DNA of 39,098 nucleotides from an uncultured Lachnospiraceae bacterium (GTDB taxonomy: Bacteria > Bacillota > Clostridia > Lachnospirales > Lachnospiraceae). The notes beneath the pieces were generated by a model. The model worked only from the letters and a program-made list of their open reading frames with translations. It was not told the origin of the DNA and made no database searches. Shown piece after piece: positions 18,467-36,358 of this stretch. The stretch's first letter is position 1. Every line of letters begins with the position of its first letter. The stretch is taken from positions 1 through 39,098 of the forward strand of contig CAMAGI010000009.1 in assembly GCA_945833775.1 (NCBI GenBank). Reading direction: 5' to 3'. The position numbers and the translations under genes are program-made.

Positions 18467-20032
18467 ATGGAGAAGCTTGGGAAAACGGGACTACGAATAA
18501 TAATGGTGATCGGCGGCACCGTCATGCTTTTGCTGACGGTCTTTTCCGCGCGCTATTCGGTGGAAAAGCCGGCCTGGGGGTCGGCGCAGATTGCGTGGGA
18601 CACACCGCTTTTTCATGTCATGTTTGCCGCCCTTTCACTGGGATTTGCATACCTTCTCGGGCAGTATCCGGGCCGAAAGGACAGGCGGTTTATGCGTCGT
18701 CTGACAGGAATCCTCGCGGTTGGTGTCACGGCGTTGCTTTTTTGGTTGATCACCTGTGCCAATGCGGTTCCCCAGGCGGATCAGGAGCAGGTTTATTGGG
18801 CCACAAGACATCTGTTAGAGGGGAATTATTCCGCGATCTCGAATAACGAGTACTATCAAATTTATCCCTTTCAGCTCCCTCTGGCGCAGCTGCAGGCGTG
18901 GCTGTTTTCTCTGCCCGGTACGGATGTCGTAAGCGGGTATCGGCTGACGCAGTACCTGAATGCGCTTCTTTCCGGGGCCACCTTTTATCTGGGCGGGTGT
19001 ATCACGGACGAACTGTTTGCGAATTCGAGGGTACAGGTGTGTTATCTTTTGACAGCGCTTCCCTTCCTGCCCCTGTATATTTATGCGCTGTTCCAATATG
19101 GGGATGCCCCCGGTGTCTTTTTCTGTGTGCTCTCCGTGTATCTATACTTGCGTGCGGAGCGAGAGAGGGGCGTTAAACGGGCGGCATGCTGGATTGGAAA
19201 CGGGCTGGCTTTGACATTGGTGTATCTGATTCGATCTGCCCTATTGACTGTTTGGATTGCAATGTTTATGATCATAGTAATCAATGCCCTTCGTACGCGG
19301 AGAGTAGTTCCCATTGCCTGGTTTGCCGGAATACTGGCAATCTGTGTCCTGGGGCAGGGACTCGTATGGAGTTCCATTACACAAAAAACCGGAATTGATA
19401 AAAACGAAGGCGAGCCTTTGATTTTATGCGTGGCTATGGGGATGCAGGGATCCGCAGAGATCTCCGAAAATCCCGGAAGTTACAACGGTTACAACTGGGA
19501 TACCTTCCGGGCTCTGGGGAAGGACCGTGAGATGGCGACACGACAGGCCTATACGGACATGCGCGAGAAGTTTTCGGAGTGGGAGGAGAATCCCGGTGCC
19601 ATGGCACAGTTTTACAAAAGCAAGCTGTTTTGCCAGTGGCTGGAGCCCTCCTGCAGTGCTTTTTCATCCACCAATAAGATGGATCACGAGGCGGACTGGG
19701 TGACACAGCTTTGGTTCGGGAAAGCCCAGGAGCGGGTGTACGGTTTTCTCAATCTATACCAGACCTTTGTTTATCTGCTGCTTGCCGTGTATTTCCTGGC
19801 TTTTCTGAAAAACCCGAGGACGAACGCCTTATTGCCCGGGCTGATCCTGGTGGGAGGGTTTCTTTTGAGCATTGTGTGGGAATCCCAGAGCCGGTATACC
19901 TATCCGTATCTTTCCTTTGCACTTCCCGGCGCGGCTTGCGGAATGAACGTATGTCTTAAGGGAATCGGGCAGATGATTCAAAAAGCGCGTAACCACGCCG
20001 TGAGGCGTGTGCAAAATAGAAAAGCAGAATAG
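18467..20032 (+). CDS. GT-C-like polytopic membrane glycosyltransferase
   Basis: A 521-residue membrane protein starting 8 bases after the ANTAR gene. About 11-12 hydrophobic segments are seen (for example 10-25, 45-65, 78-98, 165-185, 195-230, 240-275, 285-300, 425-445, 455-470). Between the third and fourth, an exterior loop has QADQEQVYWATRHLLEGNYS, an acidic pair plus aromatic residues like the catalytic loop of GT-C enzymes (dolichol-phosphate-mannose mannosyltransferase type). A second large exterior loop lies at about 305-420. Such enzymes transfer sugars from a lipid carrier outside the membrane. Sequence identity to a named family is not clear, so a different membrane function is possible. 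Confidence 0.65.
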   Translation: MEKLGKTGLRIIMVIGGTVMLLLTVFSARYSVEKPAWGSAQIAWDTPLFHVMFAALSLGFAYLLGQYPGRKDRRFMRRLTGILAVGVTALLFWLITCANAVPQADQEQVYWATRHLLEGNYSAISNNEYYQIYPFQLPLAQLQAWLFSLPGTDVVSGYRLTQYLNALLSGATFYLGGCITDELFANSRVQVCYLLTALPFLPLYIYALFQYGDAPGVFFCVLSVYLYLRAERERGVKRAACWIGNGLALTLVYLIRSALLTVWIAMFMIIVINALRTRRVVPIAWFAGILAICVLGQGLVWSSITQKTGIDKNEGEPLILCVAMGMQGSAEISENPGSYNGYNWDTFRALGKDREMATRQAYTDMREKFSEWEENPGAMAQFYKSKLFCQWLEPSCSAFSSTNKMDHEADWVTQLWFGKAQERVYGFLNLYQTFVYLLLAVYFLAFLKNPRTNALLPGLILVGGFLLSIVWESQSRYTYPYLSFALPGAACGMNVCLKGIGQMIQKARNHAVRRVQNRKAE

Positions 20033-20057
20033 AGTGACAGCGAGAGAGGAGATTGTT

Positions 20058-21278
20058 ATGTTCAAAGTAAACGACAACTATTTAAAGCTTCCCGGAAGCT
20101 ATTTGTTTTCCACGGTTGCGAGAAAGCAGAGAGAGTATCAGGCCGCTCATCCGGACAAAAAAGTGATCCGTCTGAGTATCGGAGATGTAACCCAGCCCCT
20201 GGCACCCGCGATTCTGGATGCCATGCATGCGGCAGTGGATGAGATGGGACATGCGGAGACCTTCCGCGGCTACGCTCCCGATCTGGGGTACGAGTTTTTG
20301 CGGAATGCGATAGCCGAGAACGACTACAAGGCACGGGGCTGTGATATCAGCGCGGACGAGATCTTTGTGTCGGACGGTGCAAAATGTGATTCCAGCAACA
20401 TTCAGGAAATTTTCAGCCTGGACAACAAGATTGCAGTATGTGATCCCGTTTATCCGGTCTATGTGGATTCCAACGTAATGGCGGGAAGAACCGGCGTGTA
20501 CGACAGCACTACCGAGACCTGGAGTGATGTAATCTACATGCCTTGTACCGCAGAGAACGGTTTTGCCCCGGAGCTTCCCAAGCAGACTCCGGACATCATC
20601 TATCTGTGCTTCCCCAACAACCCTACCGGTGCTACGATCACCAAAAGCAGACTGCAGGAGTGGGTGGATTATGCCAACAAGGTGGGCGCAGTGATTATCT
20701 ATGATGCCGCGTATGAGGCCTATATCTCCGAGCCCGATGTACCGCATACAATCTATGAGTGTGAGGGTGCCAGAACCTGTGCAATCGAACTTCGTTCCTT
20801 CTCCAAGAATGCGGGATTTACCGGTGTGCGTCTGGGCTTTACCGTGATTCCCAAGGAGCTTAAGTCGGGGGATGTGAGTCTCCACGCTCTGTGGGCGAGA
20901 CGCCACGGAACCAAGTACAACGGTGCGCCTTATATCATCCAGCGCGCCGGTGAAGCGGTGTACTCTGAGGCGGGTAAGGAGCAGTTAAAGAAACAGGTGG
21001 CCTACTATATGAACAACGCGCACTATATCAGCGCAGAACTGAAGAAAGCAGGCTACAGCGTATCCGGCGGTGTCAATGCCCCTTATATCTGGCTGAAAGC
21101 ACCCAATGGCATGACCAGCTGGGAATTCTTTGATTATGTTTTGGCGAACGCCAACGTTGTGGGTACTCCCGGTTCCGGCTTCGGTCCCAGCGGAGAGACC
21201 TATTTCCGCCTGACTGCCTTCGGCAGCTATGAGAGTACCGTGGAAGCCGTTGACCGCATCAAGAACATGAAAATATAG
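20058..21278 (+). CDS. dapL: LL-diaminopimelate aminotransferase
   Basis: A 406-residue PLP enzyme. Start ATG 20058 follows AGAGGAG; the upstream extension overlaps the previous gene and has no site. DapL hallmarks are LPGSYLFSTVARKQREY at the N-terminus, IRLSIGDVTQPLAP, VSDGAKCDSSNIQEIF near 112-127, CFPNNPTGA near 187, YDAAYEAY, and the PLP lysine in LRSFSKNAGFTGVRLG near 250. It converts tetrahydrodipicolinate directly to LL-diaminopimelate with glutamate as amino donor, for lysine and peptidoglycan synthesis, bypassing the succinylase and dehydrogenase routes. Length is as expected for the family. Confidence 0.95.
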   Translation: MFKVNDNYLKLPGSYLFSTVARKQREYQAAHPDKKVIRLSIGDVTQPLAPAILDAMHAAVDEMGHAETFRGYAPDLGYEFLRNAIAENDYKARGCDISADEIFVSDGAKCDSSNIQEIFSLDNKIAVCDPVYPVYVDSNVMAGRTGVYDSTTETWSDVIYMPCTAENGFAPELPKQTPDIIYLCFPNNPTGATITKSRLQEWVDYANKVGAVIIYDAAYEAYISEPDVPHTIYECEGARTCAIELRSFSKNAGFTGVRLGFTVIPKELKSGDVSLHALWARRHGTKYNGAPYIIQRAGEAVYSEAGKEQLKKQVAYYMNNAHYISAELKKAGYSVSGGVNAPYIWLKAPNGMTSWEFFDYVLANANVVGTPGSGFGPSGETYFRLTAFGSYESTVEAVDRIKNMKI

Positions 21279-21303: not shown

Positions 21304-22368
21304 ATGGGGGAAACCGCCGTTAAAAACAGAATGATACATTTCGATCTGCTGCGGATACTGGCATGTTTCAGCGTCGTTGTGCTGCATTGCGGCGGAGTGT
21401 TCTGGTATGACTGGCCGGTGGACAGCAATGTCTGGCTTGCGGCGAATTCCTACGATGCGCTGTTTCGATTCGGTGTTCCGATCTTTGTGATGATCAGCGG
21501 GGCTTTGTTTCTTGCACCGGATAAAACGCTGGATTGGAAAAGACTGTACCGACACAATATTCTGAAACTGCTGATTCTTTTTGCCCTCTGGTCCTCTGTC
21601 TATGGACTCCTGGATATCTACAAGATGTCGGCATTTGGTAAGCTGAGTACAAAACAGATGATTCTGGAACTGCTCTACGGCAGATACCATCTGTGGTTTT
21701 TACCCATGCTGGTGGGCATCTATATGCTTCTTCCGGTCCTAAAGATCTGGATCGGGCATGCCGATAAGAGGAATCTGCAGTACTTTTTACTGTTGTTTCT
21801 GGTGATGCAGATTCTGCGCTCCACGGTGTCGGCACTGTTCCCGGCCAGGGGGGAAGTTGCCTACCTGATGAGCATTGTGAATGTGGACTTGGCATGCGGA
21901 TACGTGGGATACTTTGTGCTCGGGTATTACATTGCCCATATTGGAATTGAGCCGGGCAAACGAAAATGGATTTATGTCGGCGGTGTATTCGGGGAGATCA
22001 TGGATCTTGTCTTAAGCAACCTGCTCTCACGCAAAATGGGAGAACCCTGCCCCGACATTTACGACAGCTATTCTCTGTTTACCTTCCTGGCTGCAACGGC
22101 GCTTTTTGTATTCTTCACGGATCGTGTCGCAAAGCATCCCTTCCGGGAGAGGACCGGCAGAATCATCCGCGAAGTGTCGGCTTCGACGCTGGGGATCTAT
22201 GTCATGCATGTGGGTGCTTTGGAATTGGCTCAGCCCTTATTGTTTCGCATCCTGCCCGACCGGATGATCATCGGAATGCCTCTTTTGGCGTTTGTGTGCT
22301 TCGGTGTCTGTCTCGCGGTGACCCTGGTTCTCCGTAAGATTCCGGTTCTCGGAAAATATCTGGTGTAA
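21304..22368 (+). CDS. Acyltransferase family 3 membrane protein
   Basis: A 354-residue polytopic protein 25 bases after dapL; GAAGGAG precedes ATG 21304. The family signature is at the N-terminus: RMIHFDLLRILACFSVVVLH with the conserved H-F-D-L-L-R and the active-site His in VVVLHCGG. FRFGVPIFVMISGALFL near 60-76 and YHLWFLPMLVGIYMLLPVL near 130-148 are typical. About ten helices are seen. Such proteins O-acetylate surface polysaccharides, peptidoglycan or lipids using acyl-CoA. The target is unknown. Downstream is repetitive non-coding DNA. Confidence 0.88.
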   Translation: MGETAVKNRMIHFDLLRILACFSVVVLHCGGVFWYDWPVDSNVWLAANSYDALFRFGVPIFVMISGALFLAPDKTLDWKRLYRHNILKLLILFALWSSVYGLLDIYKMSAFGKLSTKQMILELLYGRYHLWFLPMLVGIYMLLPVLKIWIGHADKRNLQYFLLLFLVMQILRSTVSALFPARGEVAYLMSIVNVDLACGYVGYFVLGYYIAHIGIEPGKRKWIYVGGVFGEIMDLVLSNLLSRKMGEPCPDIYDSYSLFTFLAATALFVFFTDRVAKHPFRERTGRIIREVSASTLGIYVMHVGALELAQPLLFRILPDRMIIGMPLLAFVCFGVCLAVTLVLRKIPVLGKYLV

Positions 22369-22382
22369 CGAAGCCCATGCGG

Positions 22383-22457
22383 CGGTTACCCAGATGCTGA
22401 TTGCCCGGGTGGTGGTTGTTCGGATCGTGATTGCCCGTGCAATGATTGTCCGGGTAG
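22383..22457. repeat. 15-bp tandem repeat after the acyltransferase
   Basis: Five diverged units of 15 bases, phased at 22383, 22398, 22413, 22428 and 22443; units are close to TGATTGCCCGGGTGG. It begins 14 bases after the acyltransferase stop. No convincing gene lies in 22369-22502. Confidence 0.6.
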
Positions 22458-22502
22458 TATGTTCCAGTTAAATAACAGTATATCGTTATCCAATATATGA
22501 GA

Positions 22503-22802
22503 ATACCCCGTCCGCGGTAGCAGACGGGGTATTGTAGGTGCAAGCAAGAAGCATATACCCCGTCCGCGGCAACAGGCGGGGTATGGCAGGTGCAGGCGAG
22601 AAGCATATACCCCGCCCGCAGCAACATGCGGGGTATGGCAGGTGCAAGCGAGAAGCGAATACCCCGGGGAGAAGGCAGAGCGGGGTATGGCAGGTGCAAG
22701 CAAGAAGCATATACCCCGTCCACGGCAACAGGCGGGGTATGAGATATACAACCGGGAAGCGAATACCCCGCGGAGAGCAGTTGACAGGGGGAAAACGGGT
22801 AT
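22503..22802. repeat. Tandem hairpin array 1, exact 52-bp period
   Basis: Five full units start at 22503, 22555, 22607, 22659 and 22711, and a decayed sixth at 22763. Every unit opens with ATACCCCG, and in the five full units CGGGGTAT closes a 30-base hairpin. Arms extend to 10 bp in unit 1 (ATACCCCGTC/GACGGGGTAT). Loops of about 10-14 bases vary between units, while the roughly 22-base linker (GGCAGGTGCAAGCGAGAAGC type) is well kept in units 1-4 and diverges in unit 5. No gene is supported here: 52 is not a multiple of 3, so open frames across the array are by-products of the repeat. Confidence 0.85.
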
Positions 22803-22902
22803 GTACTCCAAAGCAAATAGGCAGCAGGCACACTCTTCTAAAAAAAGATGAAAACGAGAAAAAAGAAATGGCTAAAATGGACGACAATGGAAGGGACAAA
22901 AA

Positions 22903-23322
22903 ATGGAATATACAGTGAAAGAAAACCAACTGGATTATGATACCTATTTTGCACTGAGAGAATCGGTTGGATGGAATAACTTCAGCAAAGAACAGGCGCA
23001 GAAAGCGATCAGCAACTCTTTTTACTCGGTTACAATCGAGCATGCTTCCGAAATCATCGGAATGGGAAGAGTTGTCGGAGATGGCATGTATTTTACAGTG
23101 GTAGATATTGTTGTTGCACCGGAATTTCAGGGAAAGGGCATTGGAACAACAATTATTCAGACAGTTCTTCAAGCAATCGAAAACAGTATGTGCGAGAATA
23201 GCAGGGTAAGTGTACAGCTTCTTTCGGAACCCGGGAAAGAGGAATTCTATATTAAGCAGGGTTTCAAGCTTGTCCCTCATGAGTATTGCGGCCCTGCATT
23301 AAGAAAGATCATTCGCAGGTAA
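22903..23322 (+). CDS. GNAT family N-acetyltransferase
   Basis: A 139-residue protein with ATG 22903 after GGAAGGGA. It has the GNAT core: GMGRVVGDGMYFTVVDIVV (strands 3-4) and motif A VAPEFQGKGIGTTIIQTVL, whose Q-x-x-G-x-G loop binds the CoA pyrophosphate; FYIKQGFKLVPHEYCG is the usual C-terminal motif B region. It should transfer an acetyl group from acetyl-CoA to an amine on a small molecule or protein. Substrate unknown. It is the first of three unrelated-looking small GNAT genes on the same strand, and lies 100 bases after hairpin array 1. Confidence 0.88.
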   Translation: MEYTVKENQLDYDTYFALRESVGWNNFSKEQAQKAISNSFYSVTIEHASEIIGMGRVVGDGMYFTVVDIVVAPEFQGKGIGTTIIQTVLQAIENSMCENSRVSVQLLSEPGKEEFYIKQGFKLVPHEYCGPALRKIIRR

Positions 23323-23426
23323 CAATCCGCGATGCCGACAAAACTGGGAGTGCGAAGCACAGATTTGTGAGGCGGCGGATTGAGAGACCGCTGCCGTGAT
23401 CCGTAAAATATTTTGGGAGTTATGGG

Positions 23427-23978
23427 ATGGAAAAAGAATTTGCAAAGGTGTTCGATGAGATTCATCCGGGCTTTTTTGAGCAGGAATATATCAAGGAACG
23501 TCCGGCTGATATTTATAGTGATGAGATGCTGTTGGAGTTGTCGGAGTTTCATAAGGACAAGTTTTCCCCGGAAGTGCCGGAGAAGGTTACATTTGGATTC
23601 TACGAGGGGGATATTGACAAGCTGAAAGAGGCTGTCGCCCGGGTGGAGGAAAATTGGGTGCAGTTCTTCCGGGAGAATTCCAGAGTTTACTGCGCCATGG
23701 CAGGAGATGAGATTGCAAGCTTCTGCCTGATTGAGAATTTTGGTGCTCATACCTACGCCAACAGGACTACGCGGTTTGGCGGACCGGGATGTGTCGGAAC
23801 AGTGCCGAAATTCAGAAGACAGGGTATTGGTCTCAAGATGGTCCTGGAGGTGACACAGATCCTCAAGGAGGAGGGGTATGACATCAGCTATATCCATTAC
23901 ACGGGTGTTGCACCGTGGTATGCGAAGCTGGGATATCGCACTGTTCTGAAGTGGAACTGCAACGGATTTAAACGGTGA
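23427..23978 (+). CDS. GNAT family N-acetyltransferase
   Basis: A 183-residue GNAT, ATG 23427 after GGGAG. The first 75 residues are an acidic helical extension (EFAKVFDEIHPGFFEQEY onward), then the GNAT core with CAMAGDEIASFCLIENFG, motif A GTVPKFRRQGIGLKMVLEV (R-x-x-G-x-G) and the C-terminal HYTGVAPWYAKLGYRTVLKW. Substrate unknown. Its stop overlaps the next frame's GTG start (GTGA at 23975-23978), so the third GNAT is probably translated by coupling. Upstream, CAATCCGC (23323-23330) and GCGGATTG (23375-23382) form an 8-bp inverted repeat between the first two GNAT genes. Confidence 0.85.
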   Translation: MEKEFAKVFDEIHPGFFEQEYIKERPADIYSDEMLLELSEFHKDKFSPEVPEKVTFGFYEGDIDKLKEAVARVEENWVQFFRENSRVYCAMAGDEIASFCLIENFGAHTYANRTTRFGGPGCVGTVPKFRRQGIGLKMVLEVTQILKEEGYDISYIHYTGVAPWYAKLGYRTVLKWNCNGFKR

Positions 23979-24415
23979 CGAACGGCGGATCCTGTGAAAG
24001 AGTGCAGATCCCGGATTTGTATCAACTGTTTCTTGCGGTAGGGTGGACAGGAGGAGATGAAATAACGCAGGAAATGATGGACAACTTTAACATTGGCTTC
24101 CGGAATTCAACTTTTGTGTTTTCCGCATGGCATGAGAGCAAACTAGTGGGTTGTGTCCGGGTGTTGAGTGATTTGCATTTCCGTTCTATTATTTATGATC
24201 TGGCTGTTCTGCCGGAGTATCAACGCTGCGGAATCGGAACAGAGCTTGTGCGAAGATGTCAAAATGAATATAAAAGTTCAGAGTGGCTGGTGCAGACCGA
24301 TCAAGCAAAAGGGTTTTATGAAAAACTGGGATTTACGCTGAAAGATGATTATTTCCTCACAATTCCATGCAAATGGTTTACGGAATACAGGCCTGCTGTT
24401 GGAGCGCCCAAATAG
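23975..24415 (+). CDS. GNAT family N-acetyltransferase with repeat-derived C-terminus
   Basis: A 146-residue GNAT beginning GTG 23975 in overlap with the previous stop; a GTG at 24002 is an alternative. The core is clear: YQLFLAVGWTGGDEI, LVGCVRVLSDLHFRSIIYDL, motif A LPEYQRCGIGTELVRRCQ and QAKGFYEKLGFTLKDDYF. The last ten or so codons (EYRPAVGAPK) are encoded by DNA homologous to the second half of the units of hairpin array 2, so the array has run into, or replaced, the native 3' end. Function as an acetyltransferase is likely; substrate unknown. Confidence 0.85.
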   Translation: MTNGGSCERVQIPDLYQLFLAVGWTGGDEITQEMMDNFNIGFRNSTFVFSAWHESKLVGCVRVLSDLHFRSIIYDLAVLPEYQRCGIGTELVRRCQNEYKSSEWLVQTDQAKGFYEKLGFTLKDDYFLTIPCKWFTEYRPAVGAPK

Positions 24416-24671
24416 GCCCGAGTTACAGTATCGGGGATACAGACCTGCTTTTGGAGCGATCAAATAAGCCTGAGTGGCGGTATTGAGGATATAGGCCTAC
24501 TTTTTCAGCGATCAGATAAGCCCGAGTTGCAAGATTTGGAAAACAGGCTTATTTTCCAGATTCAAACGTAAGCCCAGATTACAACTTTGCAGTTGTAGGC
24601 TTATTTAGCATACAAAATCATAGGCCCAGATTGCAACATTGAGGTATTGGGCCTATTTTCAAAGATCAGGC
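24382..24671. repeat. Tandem hairpin array 2, exact 52-bp period
   Basis: Five units start at 24412, 24464, 24516, 24568 and 24620; a half unit (24382-24411) lies inside the end of the third GNAT gene. Each unit begins ATA(A/G)GCC or GTAAGCC; in units 2-5 it is matched near base 30 by a complementary arm. Arms covary: ATAAGCC/GGCTTAT in unit 3, ATAGGCCCA/TGGGCCTAT in unit 5. Unit 4 also has TACAACT-TTGC-AGTTGTA inside. The right arm is usually followed by TTTT, like a terminator. Unit 1 is decayed in its right arm. Confidence 0.85.
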
Positions 24672-24815
24672 GCAGACCCGCAGCGCAGGGTTTTGGATCG
24701 CGGGCCGACATATTCGGTTCAGATATAGGCTTGGAGTATCGTTTCGGTGAGATCCCGGAGTATCATTTGGGTGAGCGGAGTCAGGGAATTTGTTTGAAAC
24801 CCGTGCAAATTTTTC
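24672..24815. other. Gene-free stretch with a 24-bp direct repeat
   Basis: I see no supported gene here. GGAGTATCGTTTCGGTGAG (24733-24751) recurs at 24757-24775 with two changes, a period of 24 bases, which is 8 codons in one frame. It may be a remnant of a repeat-bearing coding sequence. Confidence 0.4.
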
Positions 24816-24850: not shown

Positions 24851-25134
24851 CAAATAAAAAATGCAATGAAGGAGACTCTTGTCAGGGAACACGACAGGAA
24901 GGCAGCGTCACCGACTGAGAGCGCAGCCAGTGGGAAGCGATAAAGGGAACACTCCGGAGCAGGTTGCCTGAATGCGTAAGTACTAGGGCAGCACGTTACA
25001 CGCGTTAAGTGAAAGAGTGGATAGGGCGAGTGATATCCTTGATGGAGGATACGGCCTATCAATGCGGGTGGTACCGCGGATTCAAAGATGATCCGTCCCG
25101 GAATACAGTTGGTGTATTCCGGGACTTTTCTTTT
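24851..25134 (+). promoter_or_regulatory. T-box leader, probably tRNA-Asn specific
   Basis: A T-box riboswitch of usual layout. The T-box sequence TGCGGGTGGTACCGCGG is at 25063-25079. Stem I holds CTGAGAGCGCAGCC and AGTGGGAAGCG (distal loop region). The specifier, set by its position right before ACTCCGGAG (24951-24959, like the ATTCTTGAG after the Gly codon in B. subtilis glyQS), reads AAC at 24948-24950, an Asn codon. The variable T-box base is T (TGGT), which would pair with a discriminator A or wobble with G. Uncharged tRNA should stabilise the antiterminator and turn on aspS, gatC, gatA and gatB. The class is certain; the Asn reading is inferred by alignment from memory. Confidence 0.85.
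25095..25134 (+). terminator. T-box intrinsic terminator
   Basis: GTCCCGGAATAC (25095-25106) pairs with GTATTCCGGGAC (25114-25125), a perfect 12-bp stem with an 8-base loop, followed by TTTTCTTTT. It lies 16 bases after the T-box sequence and 111 bases before aspS. Confidence 0.9.
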
Positions 25135-25245: not shown

Positions 25246-26982
25246 ATGTACAGAGACATCACATTGAAAGAAATCGGAGAACAGCATATCGGTCAGACCC
25301 TTCAGGTTGCGGGATGGGTGGAAAACATTCGTGACCATGGCGGCGTATCCTTTATCGACCTTCGCGATATGTACGGCGTTTTACAGGTGGTAATGCGCAA
25401 CACAGATTTGCTGAAGGGAATCACCAGAGAAATGTGTATTTCCGTCACCGGACCTGTAGAAAAGCGGGATGAAGAAACCTATAATCCCAAGATTCCCACC
25501 GGTACCATTGAGCTGGAGGCACGCAAAATCGATGTTCTCGGCAAAGTATACCGTCAGCTGCCCTTTGAAATCCAGACATCCAAAGAGACCAGAGAAGAAG
25601 TCCGTCTGGTGTATCGTTATCTGGATCTGCGAAACAGCAAAGTGCGCGACAACATCATCTTTCGATCCAAGGTCATTGCATTCCTGCGCGAGAAGATGAC
25701 GGAAATGGGCTTTTTGGAGATTCAGACCCCGATTCTGTGCGCATCTTCCCCGGAGGGGGCAAGAGACTATATCGTTCCTTCCAGAAAGTACAAGGGCAAA
25801 TTTTATGCGCTTCCCCAGGCACCGCAGCAGTACAAACAGCTGTTGATGGTATCCGGTTTTGACCGGTATTTCCAGATTGCACCCTGCTTTCGCGATGAGG
25901 ACGCGAGAGCGGACAGATCCCCCGGCGAGTTTTACCAGCTGGATTTCGAGATGAGCTTTGCGACTCAGGAGGATGTTTTCCGGGTGGGAGAGGAGGTTCT
26001 CTCCGCCACATTTGAAAAGTTCGCACCCGAAGGATATGAGGTGACCAGGGCACCCTACCCGATCATCAGCTACAGGCAGGCAATGCTGGAGTTTGGAACC
26101 GACAAGCCGGATCTGCGCAATCCCTTACGCATCATGGACCTGACGGAATTTTTCCAGAGGTGTACCTTTAAACCCTTTATCGGCCGCACGGTAAGAGCGA
26201 TCAAGGTCCATGAGGAAATGTCCAAGGGCTTCCATGAAAAGCTTCTGAAATTTGCCACGGATATGGGGATGGGCGGTCTCGGTTATCTGGAAGTGGCTGA
26301 AGATCTGAGCTACAAAGGACCCATCGACAAATTTATTCCTGACGAGATGAAAACGGAACTGAGAGAATTGGCAGGACTTGTCTGTGGTGATACGATTTTC
26401 TTTGTCGCCGACAAGGAGGAACGTGCAAACTATTATGCGGGACGGTTGCGTATTGAACTGGGTGATAAGCTGGGTCTTACCGAGCAGAAGGCATTCCGTT
26501 TCTGCTATGTAAATGATTTCCCTATGTATGAACTGGACCCTGACACCAAGCAGATCGGCTTTACACACAACCCGTTTTCCATGCCCCAGGGGGGACTGGA
26601 GGCGCTGGAGAAGCAGGATCCCCTGGACGTGCTGGCATACCAGTATGATATCGTGTGCAACGGAATTGAGTTGTCCTCCGGAGCAGTCAGAAACCACGAT
26701 ATGGCGATCATGGAGAAGGCATTTGAGATTGCCGGTTACGATAAGCAGACCCTGAAGACCAAATTCGGTGCGCTGTATCAGGCCTTCCAGTTTGGAGCAC
26801 CGCCTCATGCAGGAATGGCACCCGGTGTGGACAGAATGCTGATGCTTTTGCGCGGAGAGGAAAACATCCGTGAGGTGATTGCCTTCCCCATGAGCGGTTC
26901 GGCTCAGGATCTGATGTGCGGAGCTCCCGGTGATGTGACCGAGCAGCAACTGCGGGAGGTTCATATCAAGGTGCGGGATTAA
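25246..26982 (+). CDS. aspS: Aspartyl-tRNA synthetase (probably non-discriminating)
   Basis: A 578-residue class IIb synthetase. Start ATG 25246 follows AGGAGG (25234-25239); the frame is open through the leader but has no site there. The OB-fold anticodon domain is 1-105, the catalytic core runs from 120 with [15 protein letters not shown] (flipping loop, 166-180), motif 2 [16 protein letters not shown], the bacterial GAD insertion about 290-400, and motif 3 [20 protein letters not shown]. The anticodon-binding loop reads RDHGG with H31; His here is reported in bacterial AspRS that also charge tRNA-Asn, where discriminating enzymes such as E. coli have Leu. With gatCAB in the same operon, this enzyme likely makes both Asp-tRNA(Asp) and Asp-tRNA(Asn). 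Confidence 0.95.
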
Positions 26983-36204: not shown

Positions 36205-36218
36205 GTTAACAGAAACAA

Positions 36219-36307
36219 CTGCGCAACTGGCGGAAAGCGAGTGAATTCTCTCGTGGTGGGAGGACCCACAGGGAGCGCAGCATAATGAAACGGCCGACCG
36301 CCTGGGC
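36219..36307 (+). promoter_or_regulatory. ZTP/ZMP riboswitch (pfl motif)
   Basis: Helix P1 is CTGCGC (36219-36224) with GCGCAG (36275-36280). Within it come ACTGGCGGAAA and GGTGGGAGGACCC...GGGAGC; after it the conserved GCCGACCGCCTGGGCA. The pseudoknot pairs GGCGG (36229-36233) with CCGCC (36298-36302). These are the hallmarks of the pfl motif, which binds ZMP (AICAR ribotide) and ZTP. The next two genes use or follow ZMP, so ligand binding should switch them on when folate one-carbon units run short. Confidence 0.9.
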
Positions 36308-36358
36308 ACCACCGATTGTCAGAGACATTCTGTGTTCCCTCGGTGGTCGTTTTGTTTT
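36308..36358 (+). terminator. ZTP riboswitch expression-platform terminator
   Basis: ACCACCGA (36308-36315) pairs with TCGGTGGT (36340-36347), followed by CGTTTTGTTTT. The left arm directly abuts the conserved CCTGGGC of the aptamer, so ligand binding can compete with terminator formation. Confidence 0.82.

Follow-up and report, generated by a model that had tools for sequence, protein, structure and literature searches.

Tandem palindromic arrays of constrained unit length beside three acetyltransferase genes in an uncultured Lachnospiraceae bacterium: candidate modular elements of BOX-like architecture

Two 52-bp palindromic arrays on either side of three GNAT genes

We analysed a stretch of 39,098 bp from an uncultured Lachnospiraceae bacterium (the window; contig CAMAGI010000009.1, here C9, of assembly GCA_945833775.1, which comprises 2.67 Mb in 227 contigs and is 83% complete), in which two tandem arrays of palindromic units, arrays A and B, enclose three genes for acetyltransferases of the GNAT type. 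An original prediction, made from the letters of the window, had described two unrelated 52-bp hairpin arrays bracketing the three genes, and this arrangement was confirmed by the coordinates, by Tandem Repeats Finder (TRF) and by Pfam. Going beyond it, we found that both arrays belong to genome-wide families and that array A has ends of its own, with which it forms a unit that we call element A. The features, from left to right, are as follows.

22445..22502, + strand: left end of element A, a worn terminal inverted repeat (TIR) with a promoter-like segment (matrix scan; model match at 22446-22501)
22503..22793, + strand: array A, 52-bp units of which five are intact and the sixth is decayed (arm search, TRF)
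22794..22846, + strand: right end of element A, TIR at about 22827-22845 (matrix, flank alignments, TIR-core scan)
22903..23322, + strand: GNAT1, acetyltransferase of 139 aa (PF13673, PF13508, PF00583)
23427..23978, + strand: GNAT2, acetyltransferase of 183 aa (PF13508, PF13527, PF00583)
23975..24415, + strand: GNAT3, acetyltransferase of 146 aa, start codon uncertain (PF13508, PF00583)
24385..24708, + strand: array B, with a half unit at 24385, then five full units starting at 24413 and a worn unit from 24673 (arm search, TRF)

Each unit of array A consists of 8-bp inverted arms (ATACCCCG / CGGGGTAT) with 14 bp inside, followed by a 22-bp linker; units with exact arms start at 22503, 22555, 22607, 22659 and 22711 and the decayed sixth at 22763, all spaced by 52 bp. 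The same length is reached differently in array B, whose arms TARGCCYG / CRGGCYTA enclose 19 bp (8-19-8) and are followed by a 17-bp linker. Its units start at 24413, 24465, 24517, 24569 and 24621 with 0-2 arm mismatches, and a weak sixth unit starts at 24673, again 52 bp apart; the first unit overlaps the stop codon of GNAT3 (24415), and the array extends to about 24708, a little beyond the end originally given. Because the pattern ATACCCCN{8,24}GGGGTAT has 51 sites in the genome versus 0 for a reversed control, and because TRF scored the two arrays of the window at 315 and 176, the arrays are not a chance arrangement.

The products of GNAT1-3 each exceed a Pfam cut-off, and GNAT1 and GNAT3 are remote homologues (27.6% identity over 116 aa). 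The start of GNAT3 is doubtful, since its homologues align from residue 11-14, one partial match excepted. All three genes lie outside element A, with GNAT1 beginning 57 bp past it.

Both arrays belong to dispersed families

Arrays of family A were found on 12 contigs (C6, C9, C16, C21, C68, C84, C95, C109, C116, C131, C143 and C168). Several of them stop at contig edges, and C16/C21 and C6/C168 may be two arrays broken by the assembly, because the units are identical within each pair. In a search that permitted hairpins of 26-34 bp at any spacing, 52 of the 59 spacings equal 52 bp; one of the remaining seven is a spacing of 51 bp between good units, and six touch worn edge units. Family B is represented on six contigs (C8, C9, C23, C54, C112 and C175), with 32 of 35 spacings equal to 52 bp and hairpins of 35 bp throughout, save two worn edge units.

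The genome of the window contains two more families, C (arms TTACCTACTG/CAGTAGGTAA, 62-63 bp) and D (AGGCCCAAA-type arms, 54 bp). Families E to I came from 365 kb sampled of the genomes G011 and G151, plus the follow-up of matches: family E in G072 and family F in G011 and G151 both have a period of 52 bp, family I has one of 62 bp, and for families G and H TRF reported 106 and 159 bp, which were resolved to 53-bp units (H was also given directly as 53).

Some further repeats were seen in passing. Other minisatellites with periods of about 10-54 bp lie near family A arrays (loci L033, L034, L036, L040 and L041), and a hairpin-rich 122-bp unit in about 2.3 copies (L114, 472-757; G000:C15) is closely followed by an ORF that resembles gyrB by eye. 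Scattered single palindromes such as ATACCCCGTCAGCTTGCTGCGGGGTAT, which share the arm of array A, occur in G020, G026, G019, G036 and G005, with at least 11 pattern matches in one of these genomes, not all of the ATACCCCGTCAGCTTGCTGCGGGGTAT type. In other genomes of the genus, ATACCCC...GGGGTAT gave single matches on scattered contigs, mostly of 24-27 bp, with no 52-bp arrays among the matches listed.

Element A has ends that also flank other arrays

Once oriented, the family A arrays proved to share their left flank, of which the right flank is an inverted repeat in C9, C21, C68, C84 and C95. A matrix derived from 11 other left ends had its top match of both window strands at 22445 (15.9, next 2.0), and one derived from four other right ends had its top plus-strand match at 22817 (26.6, next 16.3). 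Since the ends in the window were recovered by matrices built without the window copy, element A spans about 22445-22846 (~400 bp). The model match at 22446-22501 stems from a model whose training set included the window copy, and the right TIR has four mismatches to the core, with two other sites of the window scoring equally in the TIR-core scan. Element A contains only the array and no transposase gene. The number of modules varies between family A elements, in which two differing conserved ends flank one tandem module.

A model of eight left ends retrieved 16 strong copies from the genome. The eight new ones precede arrays of family C (C33, C181, C119), of families D and C (C35), D units (C10) and A units (C44, C168), and one stands without an array (C86). 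Because the same left end is found before A, C and D arrays, one kind of end is evidently combined with different arrays. The downstream gene is co-directional with the left end in all nine array elements with a Pfam-supported downstream gene (C6, C9, C10, C21, C44, C68, C84, C109 and C181; C131 was excluded, and the rest lie at or near contig edges), and the upstream genes are of mixed orientation. This fits a role of the left end as promoter or leader, and also an insertion bias.

The same class of ends encloses single genes in relatives

The ends of element A belong to a transposase-less class with the TIR TCCCTTTTCGGAATTGTGT(T/A)CC, a promoter-like left end and 8-bp AT-rich target duplications. 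Its 21-base TIR core is present without mismatch in 35 stretches of named genomes; a single Agathobacter metagenome-assembled genome (MAG) accounts for 24 of these, and Clostridium fessum is among the other sources; a 22-base TIR with at most two mismatches was detected in 53 of 138 genomes of the genus, with 0 for the control. Many copies are miniature inverted-repeat transposable elements (MITEs) of about 175 bp. Of 17 such MITEs, 10 show a perfect 8-bp duplication, always at the same offset, and seven have 1-7 mismatches in it.

Twenty regions were taken from the TIR matches listed for genomes of the genus; 13 carry a gene, one holds an element without a sense gene, two are empty and four contain only the left end within the stretch. 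Together with four found earlier, this brings the number of gene-bearing elements to 17. They measure 441-1438 bp, and their longest sense ORFs, the starts of which are not fixed, comprise 107-331 codons. The target duplication is exact in eight of them, differs at a single position in five and has at least three mismatches in four; G138 counts as exact only if the outer one of its two right ends is taken. A TTGTGT motif combined with a -10 motif (at most one mismatch, 16-18 bp apart) occurs in 12 of the 17 left ends versus 1.7% of random positions of relatives. The passengers include a GNAT gene in G099, with an exact duplication, and another in G118, besides genes for a flavin reductase, a nitroreductase-like and a DMP19-like protein, a sub-threshold cytidine-deaminase match and several ORFs without a Pfam match. 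In a MAG from the Bacillota, a left end of this class is followed by a truncated GNAT gene.

Another 20 regions added none to the 17. They comprise two empty elements of 182 and 183 bp, a 787-bp stretch in G150:C51 with a 216-aa ORF between the ends and four mismatches in the duplication, four G000 stretches with end-like sites near contig edges, one region without an end at the threshold and three blind picks without a known match; the remaining ones had no right end in the stretch. As a separate observation, one TIR element of G071 (L170, 1288-2725) contains a 190-codon ORF, a 59-bp tandem repeat and, towards the right, a 157-bp MITE that is bounded by an exact 8-bp duplication of its own.

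Arms and unit length are kept while loops and linkers diverge

For 11 consensus units of family A arrays, the entropy of the two arms was 0.00 and 0.05 bits, compared with 1.23 bits for the inner part and 1.09 bits for the linker, and 143 substitutions outside the arms were deduced; the units were cut at fixed geometry with up to three arm mismatches, and the statement on unit length rests on the search with free spacing. Families A and B thus keep 52 bp while their loops and linkers diverge, and the predicted constraint on unit length held in both. The few arm changes in family A (7 of 344 pair cells, from 43 distinct hairpins) are all one-sided. In family B, the arms vary at the R/Y positions and the partners change independently: 237 of 304 cells are Watson-Crick pairs versus 236.1 +/- 5.3 with shuffled arms, and pairing across the linker is equally good (178 of 232). 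As the arms are conserved or vary without covariation and the loops and linkers diverge, they look like half-sites in DNA and not like RNA hairpins; if there is selection, its target seems to be the individual arm as a site in DNA and not the pairing.

These data bear directly on the proposal that the arrays are transcribed into stem-loops serving as attenuators, terminators or stabilisers of mRNA, as has been suggested for BOX and for bacterial interspersed mosaic elements (BIMEs). The palindromic units and the short T-rich stretch that often lies 3' of array B units would suit this proposal, and the cited part of a study on BOX repeats predicts that they fold once transcribed and can alter expression (PMC3049150). 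Against it stand the lack of covariation in family B and the one-sided changes in family A. A terminator scan gave three sites compared with 2.4 in shuffles; on the plus strand neither array contains one, and a single minus-strand site lies at the edge of A. The Rfam scan of the window placed no family at gathering score on either array. We disfavour hairpins or terminators as the selected feature on account of the pairing data and the near-shuffled terminator count, and regard the RNA proposal as a whole as unlikely.

A CRISPR-like or other guide array would share the regular palindromic repeats of about 30 bp at intervals of 22 bp. Here, the intervals are related within arrays and there are no unrelated spacers, and the variable part is the centre of the palindrome, the reverse of a CRISPR; this candidate was discarded and has a negligible chance of being correct.

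The periods of the nine array families are 52, 52, 52, 52, 53, 53, 54, 62 and 62.4 bp, which is near five or six helical turns. Against a uniform null of 45-70 bp and a turn of 10.5 bp, none of 200,000 draws was equally phased, and with equal values collapsed to five distinct ones P was 6e-4. The originally suggested constraint on unit length is therefore borne out, but not a single fixed value of 52 bp, as the nine families fall into two groups, 52-54 and 62-63 bp. When all the sequence obtained was scanned and duplicates were removed (units of 30-80 bp, arms of at least 7 bp), 22 arrays were listed, 12 of them at 52 bp, six at 62-63 bp and one each at 51, 54, 70 and 36 bp. The scan revealed no palindromic array in 202 kb of relatives' loci and none in 443 kb made up of samples from G072, G009, G121 and G013 and of interval loci, from which we conclude that such arrays are concentrated in some species.

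A neutral minisatellite would explain part of these observations: a 52-bp unit spread by slippage or conversion would keep its length by descent, and its arms would be constant by chance, amplification or ascertainment. Consistent with this, units of family A are more similar within arrays than between them outside the arms (difference of 0.23 vs. 0.51), and other minisatellites occur nearby. What such a process does not readily account for is that interior units keep both arms and their length in arrays that differ at half of the other positions, and that families with other arms retain near-integral helical periods. We consider a purely neutral origin rather doubtful.

The GNAT genes lie in a variable interval

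The arrays and the GNAT genes lie between an aminotransferase gene and aspS, with the following features at the borders.

20007..21278, + strand: class I/II aminotransferase, left neighbour of the interval in many relatives (Pfam PF00155; DNA matches across the genus)
21304..22368, + strand: acyltransferase (Acyl_transf_3), last gene before the insertion (PF01757; tblastn)
24857..25103, + strand: T-box leader upstream of aspS, where the variable interval ends on the right (RF00230 of Rfam with 82.6 bits, E 1.1e-17)
25249..26982, + strand: class II aminoacyl-tRNA synthetase of the aspS type, right neighbour (PF00152, PF01336, PF02938; DNA matches across the genus)

The T-box leader is a clear homologue, yet scores below the Rfam gathering score of 93. 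We compared the interval with those of 20 relatives, chosen from the matches listed and having both border genes on one contig. The acyltransferase was present in three of them (G036, G102 and G105; tblastn). Its distance from the T-box leader is 106 bp in G036 versus 2489 bp here, so that the arrays and GNAT genes occupy 2.4 kb in the window and the corresponding space only 0.1 kb in G036. The relatives' intervals differ in length and gene content, and none of the 20 contained GNAT1, GNAT2 or GNAT3 (tblastn, E 1e-4). Neither an invariant GNAT synteny in relatives without arrays nor freely varying periods turned up in the material examined. Judged from these comparisons, the trio is apparently cargo of the variable aminotransferase-aspS interval; element A is its neighbour, and a role as its carrier is only conceivable.

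Homologues of GNAT1 were present in 36 of 138 genomes (E 1e-15), of GNAT2 in 15 of 101 (1e-10) and of GNAT3 in 14 of 138 (1e-15), each count including the window's genome. We turned part of these matches into loci, and the 58 resulting ones, one of which is that of the window, had no TIR nearer than five mismatches and no recognisable cassette. Among them, all three genes occur together only in the genome of the window; G100 has a GNAT2 homologue beside a GNAT3-like gene.

The neighbours of the arrays give a mixed picture. Family B arrays adjoin GNAT3 in the window, a gene for an ASCH-GNAT fusion on C54 and a weak, sub-cut-off GNAT match on C8, in a genome with 17 PF00583 genes, and arrays in G072, G011 and G151 also adjoin GNAT genes. 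The family A arrays outside the window have neighbours other than GNATs, and other arrays of G011 and G151 adjoin genes of the PGM, HD and nickel-insertion types or ORFs that Pfam does not recognise. An association of arrays with GNAT genes is unproven, because the window is the index case, the arrays of G011 and G151 surfaced through the GNAT search, and other arrays have other neighbours.

Individual loci among these deserve mention. A palindromic array with a 52-bp period and different arms stands directly upstream of a GNAT1 homologue in both G011 (L363, 706-1890) and G151 (L361); in G011 it has a GNAT gene on either side. In G072, a 52-bp palindromic array that has the left TIR end of this class is followed after about 50 bp by a GNAT gene on the minus strand (L161, 917-1351), whose product matches the NCBIfam equivalog for AAC(6') group E with 202 bits (cut-off 140).

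The original prediction had seen in the locus an accessory island, possibly one that collects genes. In a stronger form of this idea, recombination at the two arrays would capture GNAT genes, with the arrays serving as borders much as integron attachment sites do. The extra length and the absence of GNAT1-3 from the 20 intervals agree with an accessory nature, whereas the arrays are not specific to the locus and belong to two families, found at many places without GNATs. Gene collection draws some support from the ends of element A, whose class carries single genes, twice a GNAT (G099, G118), and from the palindromic 52-bp arrays that border GNAT genes in G011, G151 and G072. However, the GNATs of the window lie outside the element, the other 57 homologue loci are without a recognisable cassette, and other arrays of G011 and G151 border other genes. 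Integron attC sites were also tried as a candidate and rejected, with 0 R-box pairs in arrays A and B. Capture of GNATs between the two arrays appears improbable to us.

Modular elements with helix-phased arrays as the best reading

Taken together, we interpret the arrays as parts of BOX-like modular elements that contain helix-phased arrays of putative half-sites, a reading to which we give slightly better than even confidence. Array A would form the variable core of a mobile element that is modular and transposase-less, with fixed ends around a tandem array. Other members of its class either are empty, at about 175 bp, or have one gene following the promoter-like left end, and in relatives they insert with an 8-bp AT-rich target duplication. 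The elements would be moved by a transposase acting in trans, and the arrays may grow and homogenise via slippage or unequal recombination. The arms are candidates for paired half-sites of a DNA-binding protein that needs its repeats on one face of the helix, and the left end might transcribe into the downstream gene. Array B could be a second such array, without recognised ends.

Several points weigh against this interpretation. The arrays were found and their units picked via the arms, so that arm constancy is partly built in, and an array with changed arms would be counted as a separate family; because of this ascertainment, we lowered our confidence and raised that in the neutral origin slightly. 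The families may share ancestry, which would make the nine periods not fully independent, and the period test excluded palindromic arrays with just two copies of a 51-, 52- or 70-bp unit, an array of 36-bp units in a histidine-rich coding stretch and the 122-bp repeat, which was outside the size range. The right inverted repeat was not recognised in flank alignments of C6, C109 and C131, no ends were recognised around array B, and no target duplication was recognisable in the inspected flanks of element A, whose ends are worn. G118, one of the two GNAT-bearing elements, has a poor duplication with three mismatches. A non-exhaustive survey of ORFs between or behind the ends, with ORF starts judged by eye, recognised no transposase with ends of this class, and no binding protein is known for the proposed half-sites.

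A far-reaching extension of this reading is possible but doubtful. Helix-phased half-site arrays of differing arm sequence, with five or six turns per unit and DNA-binding proteins on one helix face, would be genus-wide in these Lachnospiraceae; they would ride on cassettes mobilised by a transposase in trans and provided with a promoter end, swapping with single genes and repeatedly acquiring acetyltransferases.

In terms of architecture, to which the following assignments are confined, BOX is the closest known system and mobile insertion cassettes are the closest mobile kind. A cassette of this kind is reportedly MIC231 of Bacillus cereus. A REP (repetitive extragenic palindromic) system with its RAYT transposase was another candidate that we did not favour. 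REP systems are tied to Y1 transposases; PF01797, the Y1 transposase family, had no match in the assembly of the window's genome at its 83% completeness. According to the sections cited here, BOX of Streptococcus pneumoniae and S. suis is a dispersed composite repeat with two fixed ends, TIRs and a variable internal tandem module, and several ends and modules combine in S. suis (PMC3049150). The elements described here resemble the BOX described there in their fixed ends, TIRs, variable module number and dispersed copies, but their module, 52-54 or 62-63 bp long, is an inverted pair of putative half-sites, and in relatives such ends also surround whole genes and an 8-bp target duplication was measured. 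Parts of two reports present mobile insertion cassettes as transposase-less mobile elements (PMC3129680, PMC5444012), the latter for MICE of the Aeromonas plasmid pAC3, which have inverted repeats and a passenger gene that MITEs lack. The likeness to the cassettes in these excerpts lies in the missing transposase, the inverted repeats and the presence of one passenger or none; unlike them, the class is spread over many species of one genus with many different single genes following its promoter-like end, some copies contain phased arrays, and no cognate insertion sequence was recognised. REP/BIME sequences of enterobacteria, of which the BIMEs are reported in the cited excerpt to bind gyrase and IHF (PMC2267715), are likewise intergenic palindromes, but differ, as far as described there, from the head-to-tail units with a fixed helical period found here. 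No publication on these arrays or cassettes was among the matches listed in searches of the open-licence PMC literature.

With a unit length that jumps by one helical turn, the phased arrays offer a cheap and direct test between a protein scaffold and RNA as the mode of action of an intergenic repeat. The TIR class around array A may represent a gene-moving system in a major gut family, with many single genes including acetyltransferases, and could explain the spread of isolated small genes without an adjacent recombinase. Elsewhere in the window, a ZMP/ZTP riboswitch at 36213-36314 is the sole Rfam family above its gathering score.

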